From assembly GCF_019931755.1 (NCBI RefSeq), contig NZ_CP082918.1, positions 2,088,001 through 2,152,000 on the forward strand: a DNA stretch of 64,000 bases, written 5' to 3'. Below the pieces are notes generated by a model. The model made no database searches. It was given only the letters and a program-made list of their open reading frames with translations, and was not told the DNA's origin. This DNA is from Sutcliffiella horikoshii. Its GTDB lineage: Bacteria > Bacillota > Bacilli > Bacillales > Bacillaceae_I. The translations under genes and the position numbers were made by a program. Within the stretch, counting starts at the first letter, position 1, and each line of letters opens with the position of its first letter. This document shows positions 8,965 through 61,059 of the stretch, one piece after another.

Positions 8965-9093
8965 CGGGCGATAATTTCAATTTACGGGCGATTTTTAGAA
9001 AATACGGGCGAAAATGCAGAGGAATCGGGCGATTTTTAAGATTTACGGGCGATATTTCAACTTTACGGGCGAAAATTGCAAGTAATCGGGCGA
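8965..9093. repeat. Phased word array A: CGGGCGA x7
   Basis: CGGGCGA occurs at 8965, 8985, 9005, 9026, 9046, 9066 and 9087, steps of 20, 20, 21, 20, 20 and 21 bp. Bases between copies are A/T-rich and not conserved, except that every third copy is preceded by AAT rather than TA, giving a 61-bp super-period. It fills the gap between the NERD gene start and the RDD gene end. No coding potential is seen. Confidence 0.85.
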
Positions 9094-9106
9094 ATCCCAA
9101 TTATAG

Positions 9107-9230
9107 GAAAAATCCGCCCAGCTCCTGCTTCTCTTCTCACCCAAGTCAAAGCTGCAAATCGAAAAATCCCCCCTCCTCAAGCTAATCCTCCCCCCGTCGC
9201 CCAGACAGAGCCGCAAACCGGAAAAGCGTC
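9107..9230. repeat. Degenerate GC-rich tandem repeat, about 2 copies
   Basis: Two diverged copies of 54-60 bp are recognisable by GCTGCAAATCGAAAAATCC (ending near 9169) and GCCGCAAACCGGAAAAGCG (ending near 9229), each preceded by CAAGTCAAA or CAGACAGA. A third anchor, GGAAAAATCCGCCC, starts at 9106. It continues the intergenic region after array A and ends just before the RDD stop codon. The 68-codon open frame over it looks incidental. Confidence 0.5.
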
Positions 9231-9242
9231 AAATTCTTCCCC

Positions 9243-10046
9243 CTACAACTCATACTCCCACTCGTCCTTCATCTGCAAATAAAGCACCAGTAACATATCT
9301 TCCAACTCATCGTAATGTTTACTAGAAGGATCAAGCCCGATCTTAGGAAATAAGATATCTGCCATTTTACGAGTTAGAACGATCCGATCGTCCGTAGATA
9401 AAGAATCAAGACGGTCCGCATAAGTCTTTAAAAGCTTCCATTCTTTTGCTCCAAGGGATTTCAGGGCCCATTCTTCTACGAGACCACCCTCAGCGTTAAG
9501 TCCTTTTTCATCAATTAGTTTATCCAGCTTGGAAGCTTTCTTTTTCTTCTTCCCTCTTCTTTCATGCACCACGATGGTACCGGCTACGAGGTCCCCTAAT
9601 CGTTTATGCTTGGAATGGAAGAAGATCATCAGCATTCCAACTAGATAGTTCGCAGGTAACATATCAATGATTCGCAGAAAGTTACGGATTAAGCTGGAAA
9701 GCAAGGTGATGCTGTGCCCATTTTCTTGAATGACACGGATCCCAAGCATCTTTTTCCCAAATGTTCTTCCCCCTGTAAAATACTCAAGCAAGAAGTAATA
9801 GCTCCAATTCAATAAAAACATCAGTATGATAACTCCTGCAAACATATAAGATGGCATGTCCGTTTCAACATACTCAAATATACTTGCATTCAATCCTAAA
9901 ATTAGTGCAATGACAATTAATATATTTACAATCACCAACAATATGGTATCAAGTATAAAGGCTGCTGCACGGCTACCTAAGCCAGCAGAGTGAAACTGCA
10001 AAGAAACATATTCGGGAGTTTTTATATCTACTTGTTCTGTCTTCAA
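9243..10046 (-). CDS. RDD family membrane protein
   Basis: About 267 residues. The RDD domain (about 10-165) has the Arg in GLGSRAAAFILDTILL, the two Asp positions and three to four membrane helices, ending HKRLGDLVAGTIVVHE. A Lys-rich stretch and an acidic cytoplasmic tail of about 90 residues follow. GTG at 10058 has no ribosome site; TTG at 10046 is 6 bp after GTGGGA and is used with reservation. It is divergent from the SpoIIM-like gene, and RDD genes often sit with SpoIIM/MoxR/DUF58 clusters as here. The role is unknown; small-ion transport has been suggested for some RDD proteins. Confidence 0.8.
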   Translation of the reverse strand: MKTEQVDIKTPEYVSLQFHSAGLGSRAAAFILDTILLVIVNILIVIALILGLNASIFEYVETDMPSYMFAGVIILMFLLNWSYYFLLEYFTGGRTFGKKMLGIRVIQENGHSITLLSSLIRNFLRIIDMLPANYLVGMLMIFFHSKHKRLGDLVAGTIVVHERRGKKKKKASKLDKLIDEKGLNAEGGLVEEWALKSLGAKEWKLLKTYADRLDSLSTDDRIVLTRKMADILFPKIGLDPSSKHYDELEDMLLVLYLQMKDEWEYEL

Positions 10047-10154
10047 GTTGATTCCCACTTTCTATGGATAAATTTTACTTTAAGGTGTTTCTATTTCTCT
10101 ATAATATTACTATAATATAGAAGATAGATGAAAATGAGACACGAGGTGTAAAAG

Positions 10155-11117
10155 ATGAATGTCAAACAATTTATTAAACAGCATCGTGACCAGTGGAAGG
10201 AGCTAGAAAAACTAGCATCCGATTTACATAAGCGCAAACATATTACTGGGAAGAACCTCGAGCGATTCCACAGTCTCTACCAAAAGGCAGCACAGCACCT
10301 TTCTTATAGCCAAACTTATTTTCCAGAAGAAGAAGTTACTTCGTATCTTAATGGTCTAGTTTCAAAATCTCATAATCTGTTATACAAAGATCAGATTACG
10401 AGCTGGAAGCAAGCGAGCGACTTTTTTGGCCATAAGTTTATTGGCCTCCTTTATGAACAATGGAAATTTGTCGTGTTGGCTATGCTCCTCTTTACAATAG
10501 GCGGACTTGGGAGTTATTTTGCCGTCCTTTCTGATCCTCTTTATTTGTACTCCGTTCTTCCGGGAGACATGGCACAAAACTTTGATCCTGAAAAATTAGG
10601 AGACAGTGACGGAATGGTGGATGCCCCTGTGATGTCTGCGAGTATATTGACCAATAATATTCAGGTTGCCATACTTGCATTCGCCGGCGGGATAACCTTT
10701 GGTTTGTTGACTGTCTATGTATTGATCTACAATGGGATTATTGTAGGCGCAATTGCTGCCTTGTTTTGGCATTATGATATGACATATGAGTTCTGGGCTT
10801 ATATTGTTCCACACGGGATGATTGAACTGACAGCGATTTTCATAGCAGGCGGCGCTGGATTATTAATGGGGTACAAGCTTTTTGTACCTGGTGAATATTC
10901 TAGAGGCTATCAGTTGAAGCGGAATGCCAAACGTTCTGTGCAATTGTTAATTGGAACAATACCGTTGTTTATCATAGCAGGGATAATTGAAGGTTTCATC
11001 ACCCCTGCCGCGATTTCGTTGGAAGCTAAGTACCTGGTTGCGGGACTGACTGTTATCGGCTTAATACTTTATGTTGCACTAGGCAGTCTTAAACTTCGCA
11101 AAGCCCAGTTACAATAA
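10155..11117 (+). CDS. Stage II sporulation protein M-like membrane protein
   Basis: 320 residues. A soluble helical N-terminus of about 95 residues (MNVKQFIKQHRDQWKELEKL) is followed by a membrane domain with about five to six helices, including the family signature PHGMIELTAIFIAGGAGLLMGY. It belongs to the DUF95/SpoIIM superfamily but is longer than SpoIIM itself (about 210 residues) and has the extra N-terminal domain usual for members next to RDD and MoxR genes. It ends by overlapping the last 9 bp of the convergent DUF58 gene, with no terminator visible between them. AGGTG precedes the ATG. Confidence 0.82.
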   Translation: MNVKQFIKQHRDQWKELEKLASDLHKRKHITGKNLERFHSLYQKAAQHLSYSQTYFPEEEVTSYLNGLVSKSHNLLYKDQITSWKQASDFFGHKFIGLLYEQWKFVVLAMLLFTIGGLGSYFAVLSDPLYLYSVLPGDMAQNFDPEKLGDSDGMVDAPVMSASILTNNIQVAILAFAGGITFGLLTVYVLIYNGIIVGAIAALFWHYDMTYEFWAYIVPHGMIELTAIFIAGGAGLLMGYKLFVPGEYSRGYQLKRNAKRSVQLLIGTIPLFIIAGIIEGFITPAAISLEAKYLVAGLTVIGLILYVALGSLKLRKAQLQ

Positions 11118-12470
11118 CCCTCTGTTCATGGTATCGATATAATGGGATACAGCGGTTGTTGCAAGCCGTTCTTCACGGGCCTCCACCATTAGGAGGCCCT
11201 GTTTTTCCCATTTGCCTTTTTCTCGTTTTTTCGTTAATAGTTGTTGCTGCGCGACCCCTTTTATCATTGTTTCTTCTAAAGAGGTAACAGGAGCCCCTGC
11301 TCTTTTCCCCAATATCTCGTCTTCTACCCCAATCATGAAAAAGAGATGCCTTTGTCTTATTCTCTTAAGGTAGATCAGGGCGCTTTCCTCATGCAGAAAT
11401 GTTTTAACATCACTGAATAAAAGGATAAGGCTTCGCTTCTTTTGAACAAGCTGTAAGTATTGAAATACTTCAGCATAGTTGGATTCTGCTGCATCAACTT
11501 GAACGTTATAAATGGTTTTCAAGATTGTTTGCAAATGAGGCATCCCTTTTGCGGGTGGAATATATGCTTTTACATTTTTAGAAAATGCAAGTACTGCAAC
11601 ATAATCCCCTTTTTGTAATGCAGCTGCAGCAACAGTTAATGCTGCTTCTAAAGATCTCTCCAAACGATTCCCCTTTTTCAGTTCTGCCCCCATCATTCTT
11701 CCACAATCGATGAGTATGGTAATGTATTTACCGTGTTCTGGTTCATACTCATTTGTCATGACTTCCTGTAATTTGGCCGTTTGGCGCCAGTTTATCTTCC
11801 TTGGATCATCCCCTACCACGTAAGAACGTATTTTAGAAAATTCCCCAACGCCACTTTTTTGCTTTCGAATAGTAACTCCTTCATGAATCAGAAATTTTTG
11901 GGCATTCTCCAAGTACTGTTTGGCCTCCGTCATATCAGGAATTACTTTTATCATTTCTTTCTCTTCAAATACCATTTGCTTTTGCCAGAGACCGATTCGA
12001 CTTTGATATCGTAGATGCAGCTTTGTGACATGATACTCGCCTCTTACAGGCGCAGTAGTATAGTAGGTAAATTGTTTTCTACTGTTTTTTACGACCATTC
12101 CGGTAAAAGGAAAAGGTCGAGAAAAGGACTGGGGTATACCATCTTTTATTTCAACTTTCATGTCATGTTCGGTTGGATTTTCCACCATAATGTTGACAGG
12201 ATAATTAATCCCCCGCTCCATATCGCCGGGAATGCTTCTCGACATTCTGAGTCTTTTTTTACTTGGGGTAAGTACAAGGTCCACCAAGCTGAAAAGAATA
12301 AAGAACACATTTATCAGTAAGACAACCGGCCAAGAAATGGTTACAAAAAAACTCAATACAATAAAAGTCAGAGATAGTAAACAAAATAAAAGTACTAGTC
12401 TACTAGTAGGTAATATCCCTTTATCTTGGAACAGGAATCGACCCCACAAGTTCTTCAATGATTTGTTCAA
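11109..12470 (-). CDS. DUF58 protein (von Willebrand A-like)
   Basis: 453 residues. Two membrane helices at about 25-65 are followed by a beta-rich region and the DUF58 core with GEFSKIRSYVVGDDPRKINWRQTAK, then a VWA-like fold with ILIDCGRMMG. The start is a TTG 8 bp after GGAGGG, placing the 5' end 50 bp inside the MoxR gene. MoxR ATPases and DUF58/VWA proteins act together as chaperone-like pairs that mature or insert other proteins. B. subtilis has a comparable pair (YeaC/YeaD). The client here is unknown. Confidence 0.85.
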   Translation of the reverse strand: MNKSLKNLWGRFLFQDKGILPTSRLVLLFCLLSLTFIVLSFFVTISWPVVLLINVFFILFSLVDLVLTPSKKRLRMSRSIPGDMERGINYPVNIMVENPTEHDMKVEIKDGIPQSFSRPFPFTGMVVKNSRKQFTYYTTAPVRGEYHVTKLHLRYQSRIGLWQKQMVFEEKEMIKVIPDMTEAKQYLENAQKFLIHEGVTIRKQKSGVGEFSKIRSYVVGDDPRKINWRQTAKLQEVMTNEYEPEHGKYITILIDCGRMMGAELKKGNRLERSLEAALTVAAAALQKGDYVAVLAFSKNVKAYIPPAKGMPHLQTILKTIYNVQVDAAESNYAEVFQYLQLVQKKRSLILLFSDVKTFLHEESALIYLKRIRQRHLFFMIGVEDEILGKRAGAPVTSLEETMIKGVAQQQLLTKKREKGKWEKQGLLMVEAREERLATTAVSHYIDTMNRGLL

Positions 12471-14486: not shown

Positions 14487-14504
14487 GTCCCACCCTCCTT
14501 CCTT

Positions 14505-15140: not shown

Positions 15141-15176
15141 GATAAATATCACCTGCCCTTTCCAAAGGAATCGGGT

Positions 15177-33845: not shown

Positions 33846-35444
33846 TTGTTGAAATTTAAGCACGTGTCATTGTTGTTTGCTGTGTTGCTCGTTTTTAACC
33901 TTTTTGCCTCCAACTTTGTTTTAGCAGAAGAAATTCAAGAAACAAAACCCACATTAGTTGCGTTGGGAGATTCTATTCCGTATGGGACAAGTCTACCAGA
34001 CCGTAGTCAGGCATTTCCTAATCTAATTTTAGAGGGAGAAACAACAGTTATTAACAAAAGTGTACCAGGACAAACTTCTTCTCAATTGCTGGTACAAATT
34101 ACTACAGACCCTGAAACAGCTCAAGCACTTCAAAATGCTGATGTAATTACTATAAACACAGGAAACAACGATCTTCTGCAGGCAGCCAAAATCGCTGAGA
34201 TTGCTGCTGCGATTCAAGCAGGAAAAGAAATCAATTATGAAGAACTAAAATTAGATGTAGCATTAGCTGCTGCAAAGGCTGGAGAAAATTTGGCGGTAAT
34301 ATTGCATAGCATTCGGGAGATGAACACGGACGCCCCAATATTACTATATAACATTTATAATCCTTTCCCAAATCTTGATGCAGAACCTGTGAAAACTTTG
34401 CACCAAGTTGGTGAAATGATTTTAGAAGATGTGAATAAAGGGTTTCCTCTAGTTGCATCATCTTATTCGAACACTTTTGTACTTGATGCCTATTCAGCTT
34501 TCGACGGTAATCAGGTAGATCATGTCTATGGTTTTCCAGATGTTCACCCAACTATTGTGGGGCATCAAACATTGGCAGCATTGGCTAATAGCTTGCTATT
34601 GGAAATGTATCCACCGGTGGAACCTGAGCCTGAGCCGGAATATGAGCTTGAATTGACCTTAACACCGGAAGATGAAACAGAAGGTCCTGTGGAGATTCAT
34701 GTAGATACTAAAGGTCAGACACCTCTTAAAATGATGTGGATGGCAGGGGAAAAATCCGAATTAGATTTTTTAAAGTTAGAAGATGTGAACTTCTTGGAGG
34801 GTAATAGCTTTGAAGTAACGGAGAATGGAAAATATACGGTACTTGCTATTTTTAGTGAGGACGGAATGGAAAGAGCCATTCAGACGATTGAAGTTTCCAA
34901 TATTGTACCACCAGTGGAGAACCCAACTTATACGCTTGATTTATCTATCTCTCCGAATGAAGAAACAGAAGGACCTGTTACCATTTCAATTGATACAAAA
35001 GGTATGAAGCCTTTAAGTTTGATGTGGATGACCGGTGAAAGAACAGACTTAGACTTCTTGGAAGTAGATAAGGTAAATTTCTTGCAAGGTACAAGTTTTG
35101 AAGTGACTGAAAATGGAAAATATACTGTTCTTGCGGTTTTCAGTCAAGATGGGATGGCACGGGTTGTGAAAACCATTGAAGTCACAAATATTGTTTCTCC
35201 TGCTGAACCACCAGCTGAGGAAGAACCACCTTCAGAAGAGGAAGATAACACGCCTCCTCCACCTGTAAAGAAAGATGAAACAAAACAACCGGTCGAAAAG
35301 AAGCCAGTAGCTAAGAGTGGAAACAAGCTTCCGAATACGGCGACAAGTGCTTATAACTACTTGGTTTGGGGCGCAGGTTTGTTGTTTGTCGGACTTGTTA
35401 GTATGACAAGTATTTTCGTATACCGCCGAAAGTTTGCTGTATAA
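33846..35444 (+). CDS. Wall-anchored SGNH/GDSL hydrolase with LPNTA signal
   Basis: 532 residues. Signal peptide to about A27; SGNH domain about 35-258 with S43 in LVALGDSIPYG, the Asn block NTGNNDLL, and the catalytic Asp/His in DVHPT. Two repeats of about 84 residues follow (about 262-345 and 358-441), both running from EETEGPV to FEVTENGKYTVLA. Then a Pro/Glu/Lys-rich spacer and a C-terminal LPNTA motif, hydrophobic helix and RRK tail. LPNTA rather than LPxTG points to a class D sortase (B. anthracis SrtC type). It should be an ester hydrolase fixed to the wall. TTG start after AAGGGGGA; TTG 33849 is equally possible. Confidence 0.88.
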   Translation: MLKFKHVSLLFAVLLVFNLFASNFVLAEEIQETKPTLVALGDSIPYGTSLPDRSQAFPNLILEGETTVINKSVPGQTSSQLLVQITTDPETAQALQNADVITINTGNNDLLQAAKIAEIAAAIQAGKEINYEELKLDVALAAAKAGENLAVILHSIREMNTDAPILLYNIYNPFPNLDAEPVKTLHQVGEMILEDVNKGFPLVASSYSNTFVLDAYSAFDGNQVDHVYGFPDVHPTIVGHQTLAALANSLLLEMYPPVEPEPEPEYELELTLTPEDETEGPVEIHVDTKGQTPLKMMWMAGEKSELDFLKLEDVNFLEGNSFEVTENGKYTVLAIFSEDGMERAIQTIEVSNIVPPVENPTYTLDLSISPNEETEGPVTISIDTKGMKPLSLMWMTGERTDLDFLEVDKVNFLQGTSFEVTENGKYTVLAVFSQDGMARVVKTIEVTNIVSPAEPPAEEEPPSEEEDNTPPPPVKKDETKQPVEKKPVAKSGNKLPNTATSAYNYLVWGAGLLFVGLVSMTSIFVYRRKFAV

Positions 35445-35453
35445 TTCTTTATA

Positions 35454-35487
35454 GCCCACCACTGCTTCATAGTGGTGGGCTTTTATA
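35454..35487 (+). terminator. Terminator of the GDSL gene
   Basis: GCCCACCACT and AGTGGTGGGC pair perfectly around 7 bases, followed by TTTTATATT. Confidence 0.88.
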
Positions 35488-35577: not shown

Positions 35578-35688
35578 TTCTACATTTCCCAGATCTACTT
35601 CTACATTTTCCCAACCCACTTCTACAGTTTAGACTCTTACTTCTACCTTTTACAATAAAGGTTCTACCACTAAACGGCGACCTTCTAC
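35578..35688. repeat. Phased word array B: TTCTAC x6 at 21 bp
   Basis: TTCTAC starts at 35578, 35599, 35620, 35641, 35662 and 35683, five steps of exactly 21 bp. The 15-bp spacers differ from each other except for a tendency to end in AC before the word in the first copies. It lies between two convergent genes, after one terminator and before the other. The remaining sequence from 35488 to 35779 shows no gene. Confidence 0.88.
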
Positions 35689-35779: not shown

Positions 35780-37252
35780 TCATTCAGATATAAGTTCAAG
35801 CAGATATGTCAGGGTATTTTCATATCTTGAAAGGTTTATGAGACGATTTCTATAATATAATCTGCCATTTATTTCCCACTTACCAATTTTCAGCCATTCA
35901 ACTTTCCGGTAAGACGGGGCATATGGAAATTTGGGAAACAAATACTCCGAAGTAACTTGGCCAAATGCAATAATTTGGTCCTCTTTTCTTCTAATAAATA
36001 CATAATCTCCCTCTTTCATCTCATGACAAAATTGGAACAAAGCTGAGGTTTTAAGATACGGAACATGTGAAGTTTTATAGAGTTGGCGGTGTCGCTTCCA
36101 TACTTCCTGTTTAGTTTTATAGTGTCGAATGTCACCCAATTTCCCATGATGCAAAGTAAGAATTTTTCCGTCTAGGAAAGACCCAGGGTTTACTGATTGG
36201 GGAATTGTATACATCCAATATTGCGCACCCTCTTCTCCGTCATGACACACATTAAAGGGTTCCTTATTCTTCTCCGTATGATAAAAAAAGCGCAAAAAGC
36301 AACTAATCTCATAATAAATGGGGAGATCTGTTTTTCTCCCGACAATGGTTAAATACTTCTCTATAAGATAGCTCTGATTGATCAGTTTCTGGTAATGATA
36401 AATTCGGGATCCTATAGAATATTTCTCTTTTATATTCGTTGCTTCATCGTATAAGTGTTCAATTGCGTAAAGTTCCTGATTGGTAAATGTACAATAGTAA
36501 TTTGGTAAGAGGTAATGAAGCAACTCCCCCATTGATTTCTGCCCGAATCCAGGAAGTCTGTTGTCGGGACTGGAATAGAAATTATCTAGTCTATTTTCTA
36601 TACTTCTTTCACCGAACAAAAGGTCCACGAAGAATTGACGGTATCGGTCCATGGATGCCTTCTGTCTTCCAAAAGCCTGCTCCTTAAGAAGCGGCATTTG
36701 AAAAGCAGGCAACTGTTCACCTATTGCTTCGAAATGTTCCCAGTTCATGGTTGCAAGATTTTCCTCTTTAGCAAAACTTTTAAAAAATTGATACCTGTAT
36801 TTCTGTTTTTCTTTATCCCCTATCCATTCTTCTGCAACCGGTTTGAATCGAAATAAATGATTATCTAGATGTTCATATTTGGCCATACCTTCGAGAGTTC
36901 CTGGTGCTTTCCATAAAGAATCCAATATCTTCTCTTCTTCTTCGTTTAGTAACAGAATTTTGATGTCTTCCATTTTGAAGATATCTAGATTCTTCAGACC
37001 CCAGGTTCTTCGCAAGTGCCTAGTTGCAAGTGAGTGATGTTGATCAATAATCTGCATGGTGATCGTTATTTTATCGATAATCGTTATTGACATTATTTTA
37101 CATACACAACAAATGTGGATGGAGTCACTATAAAAAACTTTGTCCCCCACTTTTAAATCTTGAACTTGGAACTGTTCGAACATATCTAATTGATAGGTGA
37201 TGGTGTTAGTTTGTGTATGAACGCTTTCACCACGAATTATCCACGTAGACAT
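35780..37252 (-). CDS. Unrecognised protein with McrB/EVE-like (PUA-fold) domain
   Basis: About 490 residues; ATG at 37252 is 9 bp after GGAGGA, preferred over GTG 37261. The C-terminal part (about 400-465) reads MKEGDYVFIRRKEDQIIAFGQV, then YRKVEWLKIGKW, the pattern of the DNA-reading domain in front of many McrB-type GTPases. The N-terminal 90 residues (LKVGDKVFYSDSIHICCVCKI) may be a second PUA-like barrel. The middle 300 residues are helical with many Tyr/Phe and no motif I know; no ATPase or nuclease signature is present. It is transcribed alone. It may read modified or flipped DNA bases, but this is inferred from the pattern. Confidence 0.5.
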   Translation of the reverse strand: MSTWIIRGESVHTQTNTITYQLDMFEQFQVQDLKVGDKVFYSDSIHICCVCKIMSITIIDKITITMQIIDQHHSLATRHLRRTWGLKNLDIFKMEDIKILLLNEEEEKILDSLWKAPGTLEGMAKYEHLDNHLFRFKPVAEEWIGDKEKQKYRYQFFKSFAKEENLATMNWEHFEAIGEQLPAFQMPLLKEQAFGRQKASMDRYRQFFVDLLFGERSIENRLDNFYSSPDNRLPGFGQKSMGELLHYLLPNYYCTFTNQELYAIEHLYDEATNIKEKYSIGSRIYHYQKLINQSYLIEKYLTIVGRKTDLPIYYEISCFLRFFYHTEKNKEPFNVCHDGEEGAQYWMYTIPQSVNPGSFLDGKILTLHHGKLGDIRHYKTKQEVWKRHRQLYKTSHVPYLKTSALFQFCHEMKEGDYVFIRRKEDQIIAFGQVTSEYLFPKFPYAPSYRKVEWLKIGKWEINGRLYYRNRLINLSRYENTLTYLLELISE

Positions 37253-37322
37253 GTTGAACACTCCTCCCCCATTTATTATCCTTTTTATACTGTATTATTG
37301 TTTTTCTAAAACATTCAAAGAA

Positions 37323-41862: not shown

Positions 41863-43842
41863 TTAATTTGAAAGAGCCTCATAAAATTTGTTCGTCAATT
41901 CTATTGTGTATCTGCTTCCACCTCTGTCGATTACGTCCTCGATCAACATAGCAGTCAATAATGTCGGGTCCTTCTGATCGTAAGAGACCCATAACCCGTT
42001 TTCCAATCTTTCTTCTTTCTTAATCTCAGCTGTACCGGTCTTTCCTGCAATCTCACGGCCTGGTACATTTGCCACACTGGATTTTCCTTCTGTAACAGTC
42101 TTTCTAAGATTATCCTGAAGGAGTTTTGCATTCTCAGGTAACACGATATTCTTCCATACTTCCGGAGTTTCTTCTACCAACAGCAATGGTTTCATCATCG
42201 ACCCGTCATTTACTACCCCACCATAAATGCTTGCAAGGTGTACGATGTTTAATAAGACTTCGCCTTGTCCATAGGCAGTGTGGGCCAATAGGACCTCATT
42301 GTCGAAGGAGCCTGAGTTGGAAATTTGAGAATCGCTTACAGGCGGATAAGCAAAAGGAAGTTCTTCTCCAATACCTAATTTCGCCAATCCTTCTTCAAAA
42401 TCCTCTATTCCAATGTCAATCGCAGCTTTAGCAAAATAAATGTTATCTGAATTGTTCAATCCACTTTCTAAATCGACTTTTTTGTCGTCTACATACACCC
42501 TGGTTACTTTACTTCCCCCAATATCCCATTGTTTTTCAGGAATGTCATATTGGTGGTTCGGGTCAAGTTTGCCGCTTTCAAGACCGATAATGGAAGTAAG
42601 GAGCTTCATGGTGGAGCCTGGGGAATACGTACTACGGAAGCGGTTTTCACTCGCATTAATTCCTGCTTCCTTAAATTCATCCAGCCTTTTTTTCTTACTC
42701 ATTGAAGTTCCCATTGTAACAGTGTTTGGGTCATATGCCGGGGTACTCACAAGACTTAACACCTTTCCGGTACTTGGGTCAATGGTAGCTGCTTGCCCTG
42801 CATCATCTTTCATGACATCATACAATTTCTGTTGCATGTTAGCATCAATTGTCAAAGTAATGTCTTGACCACGCTCTGGCTCTGTTCTTGCAATTGTTTT
42901 TTCAGTGCCATCTTCTTTTACTTGGGTTACTTCTAGGCCTTTCTTTCCTTTTAATTCTTTTTCATACAACCCTTCAATTCCGGTGACACCTAATCTATCA
43001 CCCTGTTCATACCCATCAAAGTCTTCTAAATCCTGTGCAGTAACCTCATCTATATAGCCAACTAAATGAGCTGTTGCTTCTGCGAATGGATAAACTCGTT
43101 CCATTGATCTTCCATTTGTAACTCCTTCAATTTCTATTAATTCTAAAACCAGGTCCCTCTCGTCTTCTCTGAAATTTTTGATAGGCATAGCATAATGTGG
43201 CTGTGCCCAGCTTAATGTATAAAGACCTGTAATTTCTTCCTCTGACATATCAATCATCTCAGCAAGCTTTGCCAAATCTCTTTCTGCATTAAACTCACCT
43301 GGAACAATTTGCAGATTCATCACTTCTTCATTAGCAGCAAGCTTGTTTCCCTTGCTGTCCAAGATTTCTCCCCGCGTAGCTTCGGTGTAATCTATTACAA
43401 ATTCATCTGTCAAATCATATTCAGGAAAAATAAAACTTGGTTCCCACTGAATATACCAATGTTCGTTTTCTTCTTCGTCCAACACTTTATCCATGACAAA
43501 ATTCACTTCGTAATCTATCTTTCTAGCAAATGTGTCATAAGTGATCTTACCCGGAATGGTGACGGTTTCTTGTTCTTCCCACTCAACTTCTTGATCCAAC
43601 ACTTCAACTTTTAAATTTTCCATTTCAAAAAGGTCATAAACCTCTTTATGTTTTTCCTCAAAAAGTTGCAGTGGTACGTTTTCTTTTGAATCCGATTGGA
43701 GATATTCCTCATACATGCTGGAGAAATTTTGTTCCTCCCAAGTGGTTATGTAGTCGTTTAATACATCATAGGGATTGACGGGTTCTTTTTGACACCCGGC
43801 TAGTATAAACAACATGATGATCATAAATAATATCTTTTTCAT
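41863..43842 (-). CDS. pbpC: Class B penicillin-binding protein (PBP3/MecA-like lipoprotein)
   Basis: 659 residues. Lipobox LFILAGC with C17, an NTF2-like MecA-N domain (about 20-145), a dimerisation domain (about 155-310) and the transpeptidase domain. The active Ser is in SPGSTMK near residue 410, the SxN motif is NNSDN and the third motif is KTGTAE. It cross-links peptidoglycan. The same layout occurs in B. subtilis PbpC and staphylococcal MecA; the MecA-N domain is a family feature and does not by itself show beta-lactam resistance. The gene symbol is by similarity. Confidence 0.85.
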   Translation of the reverse strand: MKKILFMIIMLFILAGCQKEPVNPYDVLNDYITTWEEQNFSSMYEEYLQSDSKENVPLQLFEEKHKEVYDLFEMENLKVEVLDQEVEWEEQETVTIPGKITYDTFARKIDYEVNFVMDKVLDEEENEHWYIQWEPSFIFPEYDLTDEFVIDYTEATRGEILDSKGNKLAANEEVMNLQIVPGEFNAERDLAKLAEMIDMSEEEITGLYTLSWAQPHYAMPIKNFREDERDLVLELIEIEGVTNGRSMERVYPFAEATAHLVGYIDEVTAQDLEDFDGYEQGDRLGVTGIEGLYEKELKGKKGLEVTQVKEDGTEKTIARTEPERGQDITLTIDANMQQKLYDVMKDDAGQAATIDPSTGKVLSLVSTPAYDPNTVTMGTSMSKKKRLDEFKEAGINASENRFRSTYSPGSTMKLLTSIIGLESGKLDPNHQYDIPEKQWDIGGSKVTRVYVDDKKVDLESGLNNSDNIYFAKAAIDIGIEDFEEGLAKLGIGEELPFAYPPVSDSQISNSGSFDNEVLLAHTAYGQGEVLLNIVHLASIYGGVVNDGSMMKPLLLVEETPEVWKNIVLPENAKLLQDNLRKTVTEGKSSVANVPGREIAGKTGTAEIKKEERLENGLWVSYDQKDPTLLTAMLIEDVIDRGGSRYTIELTNKFYEALSN

Positions 43843-43949: not shown

Positions 43950-44152
43950 ATGAAGACCTCTGGGAAACAGTTTCTGGCAGATAGAAGTCCTCATAAGCGG
44001 TATGAAGACCTCAGGGAACCAATTTTCAGCTGAGAGAAGTCCTCATAAGCGGTATGAAGACCTCAGAGAAGCAATTTTCAGCTGAGAGAAGTCCTCATAA
44101 ACGGCATGAAGACCTCTGCTCTGAGTTTTTAGTAAAAAGAGGTCTTCATGCC
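43950..44152. repeat. Phased palindromic array C, period 52 bp
   Basis: ATGAAGACCTC begins at 43950, 44002, 44054 and 44106, and the near-inverse GAAGTCCTCAT at 43984, 44036 and 44088, all steps exactly 52 bp. Units 2 and 3 are almost identical; unit 1 differs in its middle. The last unit ends instead in a perfect 15-bp inverted repeat (44103-44117 with 44138-44152, loop 20). It occupies most of the 413-bp gap between the pbpC start and the luciferase-like gene end. Confidence 0.9.
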
Positions 44153-44206
44153 AAACTTTATAAGTTACCGCTAATACTAATCTTGTTTCCCAATAACAAA
44201 ACAAAA

Positions 44207-44230
44207 ACCCCTACTCCTAAAAGTAGAGGT
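44207..44230 (-). terminator. Terminator of the luciferase-like monooxygenase gene
   Basis: On the minus strand ACCTCTACT pairs with AGTAGGGGT through one G-U pair around a 6-base loop, then TTTTTGTTTTG. Confidence 0.75.
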
Positions 44231-44255
44231 CAAAGTCTATCTAAATATCTTGCTT

Positions 44256-45260
44256 TCATTGTCCAAACCAAACATCTGCCAAAATCTGATATGATTTTAA
44301 CCTTGCTTGCTGGTCATAAACATGAGTATTCACAATTAGTTCATCTGCTTGTGTTTCTTCCAGTATTGCTTCAAGCTTTTTCCTAACTGTTTCTGCATTA
44401 CCTGTAACTGTATATTTCAACTGTTGGTCAACCACATGCTTCTCATACTCACTCCAGAGAGAGTCCATATCTTCTACTGGTGGCTTTAACTGGCCTGGGT
44501 TGCCACGGATCAGATTGAGGAACTGTTGCTGAATAGATGTTGCTAAGTATTCGGCTTCCTCATCACTATCGGCGGCAATTACGTTCACGCCAATCATGGC
44601 ATACGGCTTTTCCAAATGCTCAGATGATTTAAAAGAACTGCGATAGATTTGGAGTGCAGGCAGCGTGTAATCTGGTGAAAAATGACTGGCAAAAGCAAAA
44701 GGCAATCCTTGTTCTGCAGAAAGCTTTGCGCTGAATCCGCTTGAACCGAGCAACCAAATTGGAACATCCAATCCCTCTCCAGGTACCGCTTTTACTCTAG
44801 TGGTTCCATCAGGGTGAAAATAGGAACGTAATTCCGCTAACTGATTAGGGAAATCCTCTCCTCCTGTTTTGCGTTCTCGTCTAAGCGCCGCCGCAGTAAG
44901 TTGGTCACTTCCTGGTGCCCGGCCGAGGCCAAGATCGATTCTCCCAGGATACAAGGATTCCAACGTCCCAAACTGTTCTGCAATGACAAGCGGGGCATGA
45001 TTAGGGAGCATAATGCCGCCGGACCCTACTCTTATTGATTTTGTCGAACCTGCTATATGTCCGATCACGACAGAAGTGGCAGAGCTTGCGATTCCCCTCA
45101 TATTATGGTGCTCGGCAAGCCAATAGCGGTTAAATCCTAATCTTTCCACGTGTTGTGCAAGCTCCACACTGTTTTTAAAAGATGTTTGAGCATTACTTCC
45201 TTCTACAATTGGTGCCAGATCCAAGACAGATAATGGTATCTGGTTAATTTGTACGGTCAT
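44256..45260 (-). CDS. Luciferase-like flavin-dependent monooxygenase (LLM class)
   Basis: 334 residues with the LLM barrel: [34 protein letters not shown] and [16 protein letters not shown] (in parts) are typical of the MsnO8/YceB subgroup. It should use reduced FMN and oxygen on an unknown substrate. ATG after AAAGGAGAATAAATA. It is 16 bp downstream of the M20 amidohydrolase gene, so the two may form an operon. Confidence 0.88.
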
Positions 45261-55097: not shown

Positions 55098-55115
55098 CCA
55101 CCGCTAATGCGATAG
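55098..55115 (-). terminator. Terminator of the fixABCX operon
   Basis: On the minus strand CTATCGC pairs with GCGGTGG (two G-U pairs) around ATTA, followed by GCTTTTTTT. Confidence 0.65.
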
Positions 55116-55119
55116 ACTC

Positions 55120-56711: not shown

Positions 56712-56712
56712 A

Positions 56713-57735
56713 TTAAACCTCGACCTCCTCTCCGTGTAAAGCTTTGTTAAATTCCTTTACAAGCAATGGGACGATTTCAAAAGCATCTCCTACAATCCCA
56801 TAATGACAAGAATTGAAGATGGCCGCATCAGGATCTTTATTAATGGCAATAATCATTCCTGAATTCTTCATTCCCACAATATGCTGGATGGCCCCGGAGA
56901 TACCGATGGCAAAATAAATCTTTGGTGTTACCGTGACCCCCGTCTGTCCGACCTGATGATGATGGTCGATCCAGCCCGCTTCCACTACATCACGGCTTGC
57001 TCCAACCACTCCTCCAAGCGTTTTTGCAAGTTGATGAACAAGTTCAAATCCTTGCTCACTTCCAAGACCTTTTCCTCCAGCTACGACAATATCCGCTTCA
57101 TCAATCCTGATTTTTTTGGTAGCTTCCCTGACAATTTTTAAAACTTTTGTCCGCATATCTTCTTCTTTGATATCGATATTCTCTGCAACTAACTTACCGG
57201 TACGTCCCTTCTCCGGTTGCAGTGCTTTCATCACTTTCGGACGAACAGTTGCCATTTGTGGTCGGTACTTTTTACAGAGGATAGTCGCCATGATGTTGCC
57301 GCCGAATGCCGGGCGACTGGCCAAAAGTAACCCCGTATCCTCTTCTACATCGAGTTCGGTTGTGTCAGCAGTTAAGCCTGTTGGAAGATCCGTCGCAACT
57401 GCACTAGCAAGGTCCTTTCCAGTTGATGTGGCCCCGTACAAAATAATCTCCGGCTTGTACTTTTCACTGCAATGAAGTAGTGCTTTCATAAAAGATTCCG
57501 TACGATACAATTGGAATATCGGTTGATCATATACATAAACCGTATCTGCTCCATATTCAAAAACTGTATCTGAAAGTGCTGTAACATTTTCACCGATTAT
57601 TATTCCGGCAAGCTCCACTCCCCGTTTGTCCGCAAGTGTTCGCCCGGCCCCAAGCAGCTCCAAGGAAACCGGTGCGATCTTCCCTTCATTTTCTTCAATA
57701 AAAACCCAGACCCCGCTATAATCCTCAAAACTCAC
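56713..57735 (-). CDS. fixB: Electron transfer flavoprotein alpha subunit FixB/EtfA
   Basis: 340 residues. The C-terminal FAD domain has VVAGGKGLGSEQGFELVHQLA, VGASRDVVEAGWIDHHHQVGQTG and FAIGISGAIQHIVGMKNSG (in parts). GTG start 4 bp inside fixA. The N-terminal half is the ETF alpha/beta fold. It carries the FAD that receives electrons with FixA. Confidence 0.93.
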   Translation of the reverse strand: MSFEDYSGVWVFIEENEGKIAPVSLELLGAGRTLADKRGVELAGIIIGENVTALSDTVFEYGADTVYVYDQPIFQLYRTESFMKALLHCSEKYKPEIILYGATSTGKDLASAVATDLPTGLTADTTELDVEEDTGLLLASRPAFGGNIMATILCKKYRPQMATVRPKVMKALQPEKGRTGKLVAENIDIKEEDMRTKVLKIVREATKKIRIDEADIVVAGGKGLGSEQGFELVHQLAKTLGGVVGASRDVVEAGWIDHHHQVGQTGVTVTPKIYFAIGISGAIQHIVGMKNSGMIIAINKDPDAAIFNSCHYGIVGDAFEIVPLLVKEFNKALHGEEVEV

Positions 57736-58562
57736 TTCGATCCCCTCATTTCTGCAAACAACTCTTTCCTTTCCAACACTACTGAAAGCAACTGTTGTAC
57801 CTGTTCGTCCGCGTTGCCCTCAAGTAGCTTTCCACCTTCTGGTTTAGGTGGGGCCCAAACTTTTGCAACAATGGTTGGTGAGCCCTTTAAACCTAGCTGT
57901 TTCCTGTCAATATCCTCTAAATCATTAACAGACCAGATGACAGGTTGATATCGCGCAGCCTTTAGCATATTTGGAAAAGAGGAGTATGGAACTTCGTTAA
58001 TCTCTTTTTCTACGGAAAGCAAACAAGGCAGTGTAGTCTGCACGACTTCATACCCATCTTCAAGTTTCCTATGAACTACCATATTGCCATCCTCTTTGTT
58101 GATTTCGACGACTTTATTAACTGAGGTCAAAGGTGGTATATCAAGACGCCGGGCAATACCGGGCCCTACTTGTCCTGTATCACCGTCAATGGTCATTTTC
58201 CCGCAGATAATCAAATCGACCGGCTTGATTTCGCTGATCTTATTGATTGCCTTTGTCAGTGCATAACTGGTTGCTAAGGTGTCCGCTCCGGCAAAAGCCC
58301 TGTCAGAAATCATATATCCCTCGTCGGCTCCAATCTCAATGCATTTCCGAATAGCTTTAACCGCTGGTGGTGGACCCATCGTGACGACCGATACGGTTCC
58401 TCCATATTTATTTTTCAGGCGTACAGCCTCTTCTACCGCGTGGGCATCATAAGGATTTAATATCGCCGGTGCACTGGCTCGATCCATCGTATTCGTTTTC
58501 GGATTCATCTTTATCACTTTTGTATCTGGTACTTGCTTTATACAGGCAACAATGTGAAGCAA
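57732..58562 (-). CDS. fixA: Electron transfer flavoprotein beta subunit FixA/EtfB
   Basis: 276 residues; TTG start 7 bp after AGGAGGG. CIKQVPDTKVIKMNP and LICGKMTIDGDTGQVGPGIARRL (in parts) are typical, the latter close to the nucleotide-binding loop of bifurcating EtfB/FixA proteins. In diazotrophs FixABCX uses NADH to reduce quinone and ferredoxin together. First gene of the operon; genes overlap or nearly touch throughout. Confidence 0.92.
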   Translation of the reverse strand: MLHIVACIKQVPDTKVIKMNPKTNTMDRASAPAILNPYDAHAVEEAVRLKNKYGGTVSVVTMGPPPAVKAIRKCIEIGADEGYMISDRAFAGADTLATSYALTKAINKISEIKPVDLIICGKMTIDGDTGQVGPGIARRLDIPPLTSVNKVVEINKEDGNMVVHRKLEDGYEVVQTTLPCLLSVEKEINEVPYSSFPNMLKAARYQPVIWSVNDLEDIDRKQLGLKGSPTIVAKVWAPPKPEGGKLLEGNADEQVQQLLSVVLERKELFAEMRGSK

Positions 58563-58700
58563 ATCTTTTCCCTCCTGCCCTTTATCTATTTGTAATGATG
58601 AATAGTAATGTATATTCGTCCCACTACTATCACTATATAAAGTTATTTAAGAGAAAATACCGGTTTTTATAGATTTGTTGACATGTTGGATGAAAAAGAA

Positions 58701-58735
58701 AAAACATTACTCCTTTGTGTGGGGAGCAATGTTTT
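58701..58735 (-). terminator. Terminator of citR
   Basis: AAAACATT-CTCC pairs with GGAG-AATGTTTT with one mismatch; the minus strand continues TTCTTTTTC. Confidence 0.78.
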
Positions 58736-58749
58736 AATTCTAGTCATTG

Positions 58750-59628
58750 TTAAATTCTGTATTGTGATAAAAACTTCAGAAACTCTTTTTGTATAGAATG
58801 CTCATATTTCATCAGTGCGTATGTCTTGGCATCGGGTAGATTTATCGACTGGCAATCTACTTCAAGTAGCCTTCCTTCTAAAAGTTCACGCCTCACAGTG
58901 GATTTAGGTAAAATGGACACCCCTAGCCCTTCTATTATGAACCGCTTAGTTATATGCGTCTGGGAAACCTTCATCATTTTGGTGTGAGGGTACTTCACCT
59001 TTATCTGCTGACATAGTTCGTCCCAATATCCAGGGTGATTGTGAGTCAATAAGGTATGTTGCCGAAAGATATCTTCTTCTTCAATTGGATATCCTGTCTC
59101 CAAATCAAAGCCGTCGTGAGGCACCGCCAAAACTAGGGGATCTTCATATAAATGATGGCATTTAAGATCTGTTTTTCTGTTAGGCAGACATGATAAACCG
59201 ATATCCACTTCTTCGAGTTCCACTGCCTGTTCAATTTTGATAGATTCTATAATTTTTACGGAAATTTCTATGTTTGAATGTGATTGAATGAATTGTTTTA
59301 GCACAAAAGGCAAAATGGTATCCGCAATCAACGGAGAGATTCCGATGGTGAGTTGTGATGTGAACCCCTGTTGAAAGGAATGCAAATTCGATATTCCTTC
59401 TTCATAAAGGGATAGCAATGTTTTTGCTTCCTTCACATACCTTCTCCCTGCCTCGGTCAATATTACTTTTCTACCCTCGCGAACAAACAGCTCTGCTCCC
59501 ACTTCCTTTTCTAATTGCTTAATATGTACTGTTACTGTGGGTTGTGAAATATATAACAGTTCTGATGCCTTTCTGAAATTTCCATGTTCTGCAGCTATTA
59601 CAAATGTTTTCAGCCAGTTAAGCTCCAT
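58750..59628 (-). CDS. citR: LysR-type regulator CitR
   Basis: 292 residues from ATG 59628, preceded by GAGGTG; the frame opens 11 codons earlier without a site. The helix-turn-helix is GNFRKASELLYISQPTVTVHIKQLE (in parts), followed by the two-lobed effector domain. It is divergent from citA with 110 bp between, the same arrangement as B. subtilis citR-citA, where CitR represses the minor citrate synthase. Confidence 0.85.
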   Translation of the reverse strand: MELNWLKTFVIAAEHGNFRKASELLYISQPTVTVHIKQLEKEVGAELFVREGRKVILTEAGRRYVKEAKTLLSLYEEGISNLHSFQQGFTSQLTIGISPLIADTILPFVLKQFIQSHSNIEISVKIIESIKIEQAVELEEVDIGLSCLPNRKTDLKCHHLYEDPLVLAVPHDGFDLETGYPIEEEDIFRQHTLLTHNHPGYWDELCQQIKVKYPHTKMMKVSQTHITKRFIIEGLGVSILPKSTVRRELLEGRLLEVDCQSINLPDAKTYALMKYEHSIQKEFLKFLSQYRI

Positions 59629-59738
59629 CGAATCACACCTCTGATTATTTATATTAATCAATTAGTTTAAAAATCTTTAATTTTCTTAATCAATGCTATT
59701 TTATACAATATAAGTAATAAAAGAAAGGGTGATGAAGG

Positions 59739-60821
59739 GTGAGTATACAAAGAGGATTAAAAGGTGTCATTGCAGCTGAAACCAGGATTGCGGAAGTGGA
59801 TGGTTCAAATGGTCGGTTGATTTACCGCGGATATGAAATAAGGGATATTGCTACTACTTATTCATTTGAGGAAATTGCTCATCTATTATGGTTCGGTGAA
59901 TTGCCTTCAGGTGCACAGTTAGAAAAATTCAAATCTACTTTTGCTTCATATAGGAACCCTTCCCCAACGATGGAAAAAGTTTTAAATGTTCTTCCTAGTG
60001 ATATGGATATGATGAGTGTGGTAAGAACAGTGATTTCCAGTGCCGGGGGCCAATCCATGACGTGGAAACCGACTGTTGAGGATGCGATGATATTGACAGC
60101 GGTTATTCCCACAATCATTGCTTATCGAAAGAGAATACTAGAGGGTAAAGATCTAATTGCTCCTTGTTTTAAATATAGTCATGTGGAGAATTATCTGTAT
60201 ATGTTACATGGAAGTCCAGCAAGTCCTGAGCACATCCGCGCTCTGGAAACCTATATGATATTGACAATGGAACACGGAATGAATGCATCCACTTTCTCTG
60301 CAAGGGTAACTGCTTCAACTGAATCGGATCTTGTATCTGCGGTAACTTCCGCTATCGGCACGATGAAAGGTCCTCTTCATGGCGGAGCTCCTTCTGAGGT
60401 AATAGTATTGTTGAATGAATTGAGTGAAGTTGAAAATAAAAAATTGCACTTACGAGAAAAAATTCTCTCGGGAGAAAAGCTGATGGGATTTGGGCATCGA
60501 GTTTATAAAACGCATGATCCACGTTCGATAGCGCTGAAGGAAACTTTGTCAGGACATGTAGGAAAAGATAGATGGCTTGACTTGGCATTAGAGGTAGAGA
60601 ATGCTGCAATAGATGTGTTGGAAGAACTTAAACCCGGCAGAGGGTTGTATACGAATGTTGAGTTTTATGCTGCCGCCATCATGAAAGCAATAAATATGGA
60701 TTCTTCCCTCTTTACGCCAACTTTTACAGCTAGTCGAATGGTCGGGTGGACAGCGCATGTTCTGGAGCAGGCTGAGGATAATGTGATATATCGTCCATTG
60801 TCGAGGTATGTGGGGAAATAG
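59739..60821 (+). CDS. citA: Citrate synthase CitA (minor type)
   Basis: 360 residues; GTG start after AAAGGGTGATGAAGG. LIYRGYEIRDIA, GPLHGGAPSEV with a catalytic His, MGFGHRVYKTHDPR with the second His, and the C-terminal Asp/Arg region are intact. It condenses acetyl-CoA and oxaloacetate. The citR neighbour marks it as the CitA paralogue rather than the main CitZ. Confidence 0.92.
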   Translation: MSIQRGLKGVIAAETRIAEVDGSNGRLIYRGYEIRDIATTYSFEEIAHLLWFGELPSGAQLEKFKSTFASYRNPSPTMEKVLNVLPSDMDMMSVVRTVISSAGGQSMTWKPTVEDAMILTAVIPTIIAYRKRILEGKDLIAPCFKYSHVENYLYMLHGSPASPEHIRALETYMILTMEHGMNASTFSARVTASTESDLVSAVTSAIGTMKGPLHGGAPSEVIVLLNELSEVENKKLHLREKILSGEKLMGFGHRVYKTHDPRSIALKETLSGHVGKDRWLDLALEVENAAIDVLEELKPGRGLYTNVEFYAAAIMKAINMDSSLFTPTFTASRMVGWTAHVLEQAEDNVIYRPLSRYVGK

Positions 60822-60836
60822 CGGGTATATTTATGA

Positions 60837-60865
60837 AGGCGCCTGATAAATTAGGCGCCTAAGTT
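60837..60865 (+). terminator. Terminator of citA
   Basis: AGGCGCCT twice as self-complementary arms around GATAAATT, followed by AAGTTTTCC. Confidence 0.75.
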
Positions 60866-60910
60866 TTCCGATTTGTTTACATAACAATATTATAGTACCA
60901 GTCCTTGGCT

Positions 60911-61059
60911 ATGAAGACATTTCCTACTGTAAAAACAGCTTTAAAGTGTCTTCATTGGCCCTATGAAGACACTATCGAGGAAAAATCTAGCTCTAAATTG
61001 TCTTCATCCCCCATATGAAGACACTTTCCACCCAAAAACCATCATTATAGTGTCTTCAT
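60911..61059. repeat. Phased palindromic array D, period 52 bp
   Basis: ATGAAGACA begins at 60911, 60963 and 61015; its inverse TGTCTTCAT at 60947, 60999 and 61051. All steps are exactly 52 bp, with each 9-bp inverted pair enclosing 27 bases. The loops differ but each has an A5 tract at its centre. Array C at 43950 shares ATGAAGAC and the 52-bp period. It lies between convergent citA and the FrnE-like gene. Confidence 0.92.

Follow-up and report, generated by a model that had tools for sequence, protein, structure and literature searches.

Intergenic DNA of this Sutcliffiella horikoshii chromosome carries two classes of arrays in which short conserved words recur at steps close to two or to five turns of the helix. 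We estimate at about one in two the probability that these arrays are double-stranded DNA docking platforms, which may serve as nucleoprotein barriers between transcription units. A first-pass annotation of the window (the whole 64,000-nucleotide stretch analysed here) had noticed four such arrays and had treated them as one class of element. All four were located in the window by TRF and by reading of the sequence, and many more are present along the chromosome. They look more like two classes: the 20–21 bp class keeps its words, as seen in array A, and the 52 bp class is homogenised, with varying numbers of copies and with strand polarity in its main family.

Two of the arrays in the window belong to the 20–21 bp class and contain direct words. 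Array A (8965..9093, plus strand; TRF, sequence and pattern count) consists of seven CGGGCGA words starting at 8965, 8985, 9005, 9026, 9046, 9066 and 9087, with steps of 20, 20, 21, 20, 20 and 21 bp. It occupies a tandem gap, 149 bp past an RDD-family protein gene (9243..10058, minus strand) and 50 bp ahead of the start of a NERD-domain protein gene (7862..8914, minus strand), gene names here and below being Pfam assignments. Array B (35578..35688, minus strand) has six GTAGAA words, TTCTAC on the plus strand, at a step of 21 bp. It sits in a convergent gap between a GDSL-like lipase gene (33846..35444, plus strand) on its left and, on its right, an entry of the ORF list without Pfam match (35780..37261, minus strand). 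A terminator-like hairpin of the lipase gene (35453..35481, plus strand) lies ahead of the array, where the hairpin scan gave two overlapping matches against 0.6 expected from shuffles.

The other two arrays belong to the 52 bp class, have inverted words and are given without strand; both were located by TRF, sequence and pattern count. Array C (43950..44149) is built of ATGAAGACCTC..GAAGTCCTCAT units at a step of 52 bp (43950-43994, 44002-44046, 44054-44098 and 44106-44149, the final unit being 44 nt long). Its upstream neighbour is a luciferase-like monooxygenase gene (44256..45260, minus strand), whose terminator-like hairpin (44206..44231, minus strand; one match against 0.5 expected) lies ahead of the array, and its downstream neighbour is a penicillin-binding protein gene (41863..43842, minus strand). 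A 110-aa ORF (44054-44386) overlaps array C; we doubt it because 52 cannot be divided by 3 and strains differ in how many copies they have. Array D (60911..61059) lies in a convergent gap between a citrate synthase gene (59739..60821, plus strand) on the left and a DsbA-like thioredoxin-fold protein gene (61203..61916, minus strand) on the right. It has three ATGAAGAC-N29-GTCTTCAT units at a step of 52 bp (60911-60955, 60963-61007 and 61015-61059), fewer than the four copies that our de novo scan required, and its support comes from TRF and the pattern count. On its far side the DsbA-like gene has a T-tailed terminator-like hairpin (61100..61130, minus strand) with a stem of 12 pairs, in a region where the scan gave two matches against 2.1 expected from shuffles. 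Past the citrate synthase gene, a hairpin seen by eye and absent from the scan (60838..60859, plus strand) is a possible terminator.

The de novo scan found 52 word arrays in 1.244 Mb, against one in a single block-shuffled set. Six were dropped: five in long ORFs (L039 1339, L040 11163, L058 4170 and two in L069) and one of odd period (L029 11433), which is intergenic, has a palindromic word and, at a step of 55.7 bp, fits neither period. The 46 kept arrays (20 at 20–21 bp and 26 at 51–52 bp) all come from the sampled main contig, seven of them mostly within called ORFs of 276–423 bp that we judged spurious, and extrapolate to about 160 for the chromosome. No array was seen on contigs C2 and C3, covered whole, or in 6 kb of C4. 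Word clusters are scattered through the whole sampled chromosome, mostly in gaps 3' of genes. The whole genome has 52 CGGGCGA pairs and 63 ATGAAGAC..GTCTTCAT units, and the patterns read backwards gave zero in both cases; because of these counts and the contrast with shuffled sequence, the arrays are judged not to be due to chance.

Of the lags from 7 to 200 examined across 162,873 bp of intergenic sequence, 52, 104, 156, 51, 21, 42 and 20 stand out, as do lags that are multiples or near neighbours of these (102, 63, 41, 40 and 61, for instance). Together with the 46 arrays, this lag scan bears out the helix-multiple steps and intergenic setting described in the first-pass annotation. The individual steps are as follows: 29 of 20, 55 of 21, one of 17 and one of 22 bp in the shorter class (counted over 11–34 bp), and 100 of 52, 14 of 51 and one of 53 bp in the longer (counted over 41–64 bp). 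The words vary from array to array and between species while the two periods recur, and both geometries contain TTTGACCGAA and CGGGCG.

Comparison of array A among genomes shows the word of the 20–21 bp class to be under selection. Across six genomes, differences amount to 2.0% in words, 15.7% in spacers and 32–37% in flanks; the columns that vary are 3 of the 49 that make up the words, 28 of the 79 spacer columns, and 31 of 47 and 39 of 49 columns on the two flanks (words versus spacers, p=1e-4). These orthologues were found through the flanking gene and are thus free of word-pattern bias; the search matched 14 of 16 genomes, and the eight with near-full-length matches were compared. Five further genomes have identical spacing or one step shorter by 1 bp, while array A is cut to three words in G007 and lost in G012. 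An orthologue of array B is present in L023, and in GTAGAA set s2 the copy number differs between G000 and G008 by one full 21-bp unit; apart from array B, the GTAGAA orthologues were retrieved with the word pattern itself, which favours conserved words. Relatives thus carry arrays at the same sites. Word orientation relative to genes is free, with six same and eight opposite among 14 tandem cases. Since orientation is not fixed, and since no RNA fold is seen in array A or B, we read this class as DNA docking, and it quite likely docks a putative protein.

The 52 bp class has more the character of a homogenised satellite. Within its arrays the copies agree with their consensus at a mean of 0.60–0.98, strain-specific unit variants exist, and near-identical tandem copies in variable number characterise most of this class and not the 20–21 bp class. 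At the array C gap the copy number ranges from 0 to 14 units in seven relatives, the site being empty in L026; array D has three units in G008 and fewer or none in the other genomes compared, with an empty site in G004, G006, G007, G011, G013 and G017. Dyad symmetry of the whole unit exceeds shuffles (p<0.05) in only four of the 26 consensus sequences (p 0.005–0.92), so the inversion resides mainly in the outer words. The homogeneity, the strain-specific variants and the varying copy number, with sites that can be empty, would suit selfish or neutral satellites, in which slippage or unequal exchange multiplies tandem units and this mechanism, not function, keeps the unit near 52 bp. As a reading of the arrays as a whole we nevertheless consider this unlikely, because it leaves unexplained the 20–21 bp class, where words stay, spacers drift and steps of 20 and 21 bp mix in phase, and because ATGAAGAC units retain an identical 45+7 geometry in a genome of another family (G067). 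Near-identical copies are the outcome that slippage alone would give, a point against docking, and for the 52 bp class the docking of a putative protein is evenly poised.

Placement relative to genes is not random: divergent gaps hold one of the 44 placed arrays against 8.4 expected (p=0.0017), and convergent gaps show a weak excess (11 of 44 against 6.4 expected, p=0.083). Random placement and absence from close relatives, which would have spoken against the first-pass class, are thus both contradicted. The proposed position next to gene 3' ends thus stands as a bias towards post-gene gaps, although it is loose for array A in its tandem gap. Known terminators had been thought a poor match, and of 56 gene 3' ends examined, 30 indeed have a terminator-like hairpin that precedes the array (21 of 54 under a stricter loop limit); since a hairpin already precedes many of them, the arrays are not simply terminators. 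Cooperative operators typically consist of conserved words at helical steps, and where the gap is tandem the array is followed by a gene start, as would be expected if the arrays were operators of regulators controlling adjoining promoters. However, the 11 arrays in convergent gaps have no flanking gene start and divergent gaps contain just one array, which makes this explanation improbable.

Alternatively, a Y1 (RAYT-like) transposase might mobilise the arrays as REP/BIME-like elements, in which case the polarity of the 52 bp class would reflect insertion into the lagging-strand template. The purine-rich strand coincides with the leading strand in 23 of the 25 ATGAAGAC loci that are clear, the unit boundary GTCTTCAT-N7-ATGAAGAC could form a hairpin with the dimensions of a REP (arms of 8 bp, loop of 7 nt), and at least three GTAG or CTAC occur in four of the 26 arrays of this class. 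A Y1 gene was found in 25 of 25 genomes searched, but these include genomes of the genus without the GTAGAA pattern and genomes of the order without the ATGAAGAC pattern. No array lies in the 3-kb stretch around the single Y1 gene of the genome itself (L229 1232-1828); the stretch holds two lone GTAGAA (517 and 2172) and one minus-strand TTCGGTCA (2960), and the gene is not flanked by two inverted element copies. Nor do the arrays show the REP head of GTAG or GTRG with a palindrome of 20–50 nt: GTAGAA is the only family of the 20–21 bp class that starts with GTAG and its array B does not fold, while the inverted words of the 52 bp class form a partial palindrome, and the main family of that class is without GTAG. 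The first-pass view that REP/BIME does not fit is upheld in these defining features, and we find the transposase explanation hard to credit. As a partner of the arrays the Y1/RAYT transposase was rejected, being in every genome searched without tracking the arrays.

Structured RNA at transcript 3' ends, also suggested at first, is very improbable. Arrays C (minus strand, z -6.0, sense to both neighbour genes) and D (z -7.4 and -5.8) do fold more stably than shuffles, a common property of inverted repeats, but neither strand of arrays A and B does (z -0.8 to 0.7). Over 54 distinct ATGAAGAC-type units, shuffling raises the frequency of complementarity at seven of the eight inner pairs (12–19). 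Orientation is free in the 20–21 bp class, and a hairpin often stands before the array already. Column 5/41 of these units (A-T 21, G-T 19, A-C 13, G-C 1) is word degeneracy and not pairing, and none of 4227 Rfam families matched the window above gathering score. As for DNA shape, A/T runs give high power at the 10.4-bp period in one class as in the other (5.5 and 7.2, against 1.6 in the control), but they are not special to that period in the 52 bp class, where the fifth harmonic ranks 1–7 of 10 in 23 arrays, and the signal therefore contributes little. Curvature predicted from dinucleotide wedge values is raised in the 20–21 bp class (end/contour 0.927 versus 0.952, p=0.004) and not in the 52 bp class (p=0.85).

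Under the docking explanation, a sequence-specific DNA-binding protein would read each short word, and steps of two turns (20–21 bp, direct) or five turns (52 bp, inverted) would bring the copies to a single face of the helix, where the bound proteins could act cooperatively and form a short filament or wrap. The variety of words among arrays would call for several proteins, or for one family of drifting specificity; for a single protein the mixed word set is awkward. Platforms in post-gene gaps and away from double-promoter gaps would, on the reading we prefer, be nucleoprotein barriers that halt stray RNA polymerase or the diffusion of supercoils. If docking is granted, such a role, for which location is the basis, comes a little short of even odds, and insulation between converging transcripts is possible. 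The binding protein was not found by trying RsfA (TIGR02894), which we take to be Myb-like DNA-binding: in 25 genomes its counts were unrelated to array content (six matches in each of 16 genus genomes and three to six in the other nine, read as two per protein), and it was rejected.

The two periods are firm in the genus and occur in few genomes outside it, where other genera combine them with different words. Other families, when their intergenic DNA is pooled, have 130 as the top lag, with 106, 53 and 40 behind it, which is a point against the docking explanation. The array of G001, one each of G002 and G025 and two of G034 overlap ORFs and may not be intergenic. G002 additionally carries a 114-bp array. 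In viral contigs, threefold CGGGCGA matches 22 stretches and threefold GTAGAA is found among the matches listed, both ambiguous since heptad-coding sequence can yield 21-bp patterns too; the 52-bp pattern has no match there. It is tempting, though doubtful, to regard the arrays as an unrecognised boundary system of Bacillales, in which fast-diverging word binders of fixed geometry would turn 100–200 silent gaps into barriers, much as eukaryotic centromere and satellite binders diverge. If true, this would be a bacterial example of satellite-like turnover of sequence within a constant geometric frame. The genome-wide set of helix-phased arrays of diverse words, which are under selection in the array where this could be measured, suggests a layer of bacterial chromosome organisation that the open-access PMC literature searched does not describe.

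Among known systems, CRISPR arrays consist of identical repeats of at least 23 bp with unique spacers of similar length, and do not fit, as had been argued, since the conserved words here have just 6–14 bp. Plasmid iterons are direct repeats about 20–22 bp apart beside an initiator gene at an origin. The 20–21 bp class resembles these iterons in its direct words about two helical turns apart, which suit binding on one face; it differs in being dispersed over dozens of chromosomal loci with several words, and none of the eight Pfam-checked neighbours of the four window arrays is an initiator gene. Like minisatellites (VNTRs), the 52 bp class varies in copy number and is homogenised at a fixed site; unlike them, its unit stays at 51–53 bp across different words and in some other genera, and the 20–21 bp class mainly keeps its word. 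REP, BIME and REPIN elements are likewise short intergenic repeats, with dozens to hundreds per genome, and the 46 arrays in 1.244 Mb share this high copy number, as the 52 bp class shares inverted words. An excerpt of PMC2817692 describes BIMEs as regularly spaced REPs of alternating orientation; the main families here are without a GTAG-headed palindrome, one genome has many words, and a class with direct words exists. The dispersed intergenic Bacillus repeats bcr1, Bhal-1 and Bant-1 are structured elements of 72–167 nt, and the table passages on these families in PMC2267715 mention no periodic short-word arrays, nor does its main text use the word "tandem". The working principle proposed here has a parallel in LacI, where, according to PMC4725879, multiple bound operators block supercoil diffusion; those operator arrays were placed on engineered plasmids with a known repressor, and the docking platforms would apply the same principle to post-gene gaps of a chromosome.

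All four phased word arrays described in the first-pass annotation are present as reported in the window sequence (A, 8965-9093, word CGGGCGA; B, 35578-35688, GTAGAA on the minus strand; C, 43950-44149; D, 60911-61059), which occupies positions 2,088,001-2,152,000 of the main contig C1 within a 4.50-Mb genome. For one protein encoded in the window, the closest named matches, at 89-95% identity, come from Sutcliffiella horikoshii strains and from Bacillus isolates without a species name. A census covered 1.244 Mb, made up of the window and 59 stretches of 20 kb from across the chromosome. Counting any 6-mer that recurs evenly every 8-150 bp in at least four copies, it returned 52 arrays as compared to 1 in the control of 50-bp block shuffles. 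Six of these were left out of the class: five repetitive stretches of long ORFs (steps 9, 9, 21, 36 and 63) and one intergenic array with a step of 55.7 bp. The latter, at 11433-11614 of the chromosomal stretch L029, consists of four copies of the palindrome CAAACGTTTGTTTAA between convergent genes, lies outside both periods and resembles an operator cluster. The remaining 46 arrays, 7 of them mostly within short called ORFs taken as spurious, have a step of 20-21 bp in 20 cases and 51-52 bp in 26. By extrapolation, the chromosome would carry about 160 such arrays.

The 20-21 class (A and B) consists of direct words spaced by two helical turns, including CGGGCGA, GTAGAA, TATATCAA, TTGTGAC, TTCGGTCAA and GCACGAACT. 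The 52 class (C and D) consists of units with inverted words five turns apart, with the pairs ATGAAGAC/GTCTTCAT, TCTATTTGACCG/TTCGGGCGTATAGA, TTCTCTCTTACCG/TTCGGGCGTAGAGA and TTAGATGCCAG/CTGGCATC among them; TTTGACCGAA and CGGGCG are common to both classes. A step-free count of 7-mer coincidences by lag, made over 162,873 intergenic bp, agrees with these periods: the top lags are 52 (2623), 104 (1695), 156 (1077), 51 (297), 21 (295), 42 (182) and 20 (139), against a median over lags of 11.5, and the next-ranking ones (102, 63, 41, 40, 61) are mostly their neighbours or multiples. Pattern searches of the whole genome found CGGGCGA pairs with 8-20 bp gaps 52 times at 11 loci and ATGAAGAC-N(18-40)-GTCTTCAT 63 times, with 0 matches for the reversed reading of either pattern.

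Conservation of the word was compared with that of the spacer in array A. Its orthologs were located via the flanking gene, and therefore the words had no part in the search; of 16 genus genomes, 14 have a match to this gene, and the 8 whose match is near full length were compared. Six of these eight retain between five and seven exact words, stepped by 20 or 21 bp, with two of seven words altered in G010 and one in G009, while three words are left in G007 and the array is replaced by an unrelated insert in G012. This insert, in the gap equivalent to window 8915-9243, resembles a small mobile element in its short inverted termini (CTGTTGATT / AATCAACAG). When the six arrays are aligned, pairs of genomes differ at 15/735 word positions (2.0%), at 187/1191 spacer positions (15.7%) and, in the two 50-bp flanks, at 31.7% and 36.6% of positions. 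Of the 49 word columns 3 are variable, against 28 of the 79 spacer columns (p=1e-4). The comparison suggests that the 20-21 class is under selection on its word, array A being the one array put to this formal test. Orthologs of the GTAGAA arrays give the same picture by eye, with a bias since most were located by the word itself; in one set the length difference is one whole 21-bp unit.

The 20-21 class is read here as a site of protein docking because the word is kept more strictly than the spacer, steps of 20 and 21 bp mix yet hold to two turns, orientation relative to genes is indifferent and whole units are gained or lost. Copies of a protein would then be bound next to one another along a single face of the helix. 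The same docking, with inverted words, may account for the 52 class, for which the evidence is weaker than in the 20-21 class; that class may instead be a satellite whose unit is fixed. With the inner gap left free (N18-40) in the search pattern, the ATGAAGAC/GTCTTCAT unit is exactly 45 nt long in 49 of the 50 units printed and 44 nt in one. The gap of array C holds 4 units in the window and 9, 14, 1, 2, 12, 3 and 0 in seven relatives (up to two mismatches per word allowed), homogenised inside each strain and differing from strain to strain. At the gap of array D, the own genome and G008 have three units, whereas G005, G010, G012, G014, G015 and G016 have fewer units or remnants of them, and G004, G006, G007, G011, G013 and G017 have none; the neighbour gene had no match in G009 and G003. 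A TTCGGTCA/TTCGGACA word array at 21 bp, absent from the own genome, occupies the D gap of G007, G012, G014 and G015. Arrays are thus gained and lost at fixed gaps. In the D gap, where the citrate synthase and DsbA-like genes converge, GTTTACATAACAATATTATA (window 60875-60894) is kept even in genomes without the array, with at most three mismatches in 11 of 14 genus genomes laid out and five in G004 and G013; it is not found in G006.

A structured-RNA role, also proposed at first, finds little support. Words of the 20-21 class in tandem gaps run with the genes in 6 cases and against them in 8, and arrays A and B show no fold relative to shuffles (z -0.8 to 0.7). Folding does occur for the minus strand of array C (z -6.0, compared with -1.3 for the plus strand) and for the two strands of D (z -7.4 and -5.8), as is usual for inverted repeats. 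In the sample's 54 distinct ATGAAGAC-type units, complementarity is modestly more frequent than in shuffles at pairs 9-11 and less frequent at seven of the eight pairs 12-19; column 5/41 reads A-T in 21, G-T in 19, A-C in 13 and G-C in 1. This pattern is word degeneracy with no maintained long stem; a short hairpin GTCTTCAT-N7-ATGAAGAC at every unit boundary is possible.

Placement is non-random in one respect. Among the 44 of 46 arrays with both neighbours in view (genes called by a simple ORF rule), 32 lie in tandem, 11 in convergent and 1 in divergent gaps, versus 29.1, 6.4 and 8.4 expected from intergenic bp; the divergent deficit is significant (p=0.0017) and the convergent excess is not (p=0.083). 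A terminator-like hairpin is present in 30 of 56 intervals between stop codon and array (1 after shuffling; 21/54 with a stricter loop limit), as compared to 103/268 array-free 3' ends (p=0.051) and 8/208 5' ends. Such hairpins flank one side each of B, C and D, that of D with no above-chance signal for its region. Because these hairpins intervene, the arrays would probably lie outside most transcripts.

The GC skew and gene direction switch at 2.06-2.088 Mb of C1, so the replication terminus probably adjoins the window on its left. With the terminus placed there, the printed ATGAAGAC units carry their purines mainly on the leading strand at 23 of 25 clear-sign loci (another 2 of the 27 loci being unclear; p=2e-5 relative to one half, p=0.015 relative to 70%, or 272/387, in array-free gaps). 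For all 52-class arrays of the sample the count is 23/26 (p=0.051 against the array-free background, which was counted with the terminus at 2.2 Mb, where the class gave 24/26; array C, the one that differs between the two counts, was reassigned by hand). Words of the 20-21 class have no clear leading-strand preference (CGGGCGA 2/11, p=0.065; GTAGAA 9/13, p=0.27). In these comparisons, gene direction is in large part confounded with the direction of replication.

Absence from close relatives, which would have spoken against a class, is not observed, as arrays occur at the A, C and D gaps of relatives. GTAGAA three times at 21 bp was found in 10 of 18 family genomes including the own, all within the genus, and the 52-bp ATGAAGAC pattern in 6 of 120 order genomes, namely four of the genus (own included) plus G064, with a single match, and G067, from two other families. 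G014 has 149 forward matches of this pattern versus 30 in the own genome, a lineage expansion. De novo scans of the family gave new words at 52.0 in G004 (GTTCCCTCTATTTT), G013 (AAATAGGTCGAGCAG), G001 (AGCAAAAGTTC) and G016 (GACAATCTGGCG), and GTTGGCCGAAAAG at 20-21 besides a 114-bp array in G002; G003, G011, G012 and G017 had no array in one or two stretches each, and the stretches of G007 and G010 were picked near known arrays. Beyond the family, phased arrays occur in 3 of 30 usable genomes (one stretch each, not chosen for arrays), at 20.4 and 20.8 in G025, 20.3 in G062, and 41.7, 53 and 53 in G034; other steps are 72, 90, 102 (resembling tRNA genes), 124 and 130 bp. Five outside-genus arrays overlap ORFs. 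Two very long phased arrays, one of 29 copies at 20.4 bp (4973-5649) and one of 27 copies at 20.8 bp (11594-12207), lie within 20 kb in stretch L132 of G025 (another family); the second overlaps an ORF. Pooled intergenic lags are 52 (1014), 104, 156 and 150 (224) in other species of the genus, 114, 21, 110 and 42 in other genera of the family, and 130 (277), 106 (197), 53 (162), 40 (156) and 124 (153) in other families; 100 kb of E. coli MG1655 contained no array. The word-pattern counts, scans and lags thus show the class to be strong within the genus and patchy outside it, the breadth past the family resting on few genomes.

From their placement, the arrays may act as barriers. Rows of bound LacI repressor block supercoil diffusion (PMC4725879). 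No description of such arrays was found in the open-access literature in the portions available, and Rfam gave no match in the window. A REP survey tabulates B. subtilis and, for one genome, reports that clustering and periodicity are not clear (PMC12306157). REP elements, as defined in PMC8266576 and PMC2817692, must have a GTAG-headed palindrome and stand on both sides of a RAYT. The main families here differ in lacking the GTAG head; GTAG or CTAC is repeated at least three times in 4 of 26 52-class arrays (L031 10613-10805, L067 11250-11771, L079 700-948 and L085 5523-5692). They differ also in that the own Y1 gene has no surrounding array. This RAYT-like transposase gene is single-copy (L229 1232-1828, about 4.03 Mb of C1), and all 25 genomes searched for a Y1 gene have one. 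The stem-loop families of Bacillus described in PMC2267715 are longer structured elements, unlike the arrays here.
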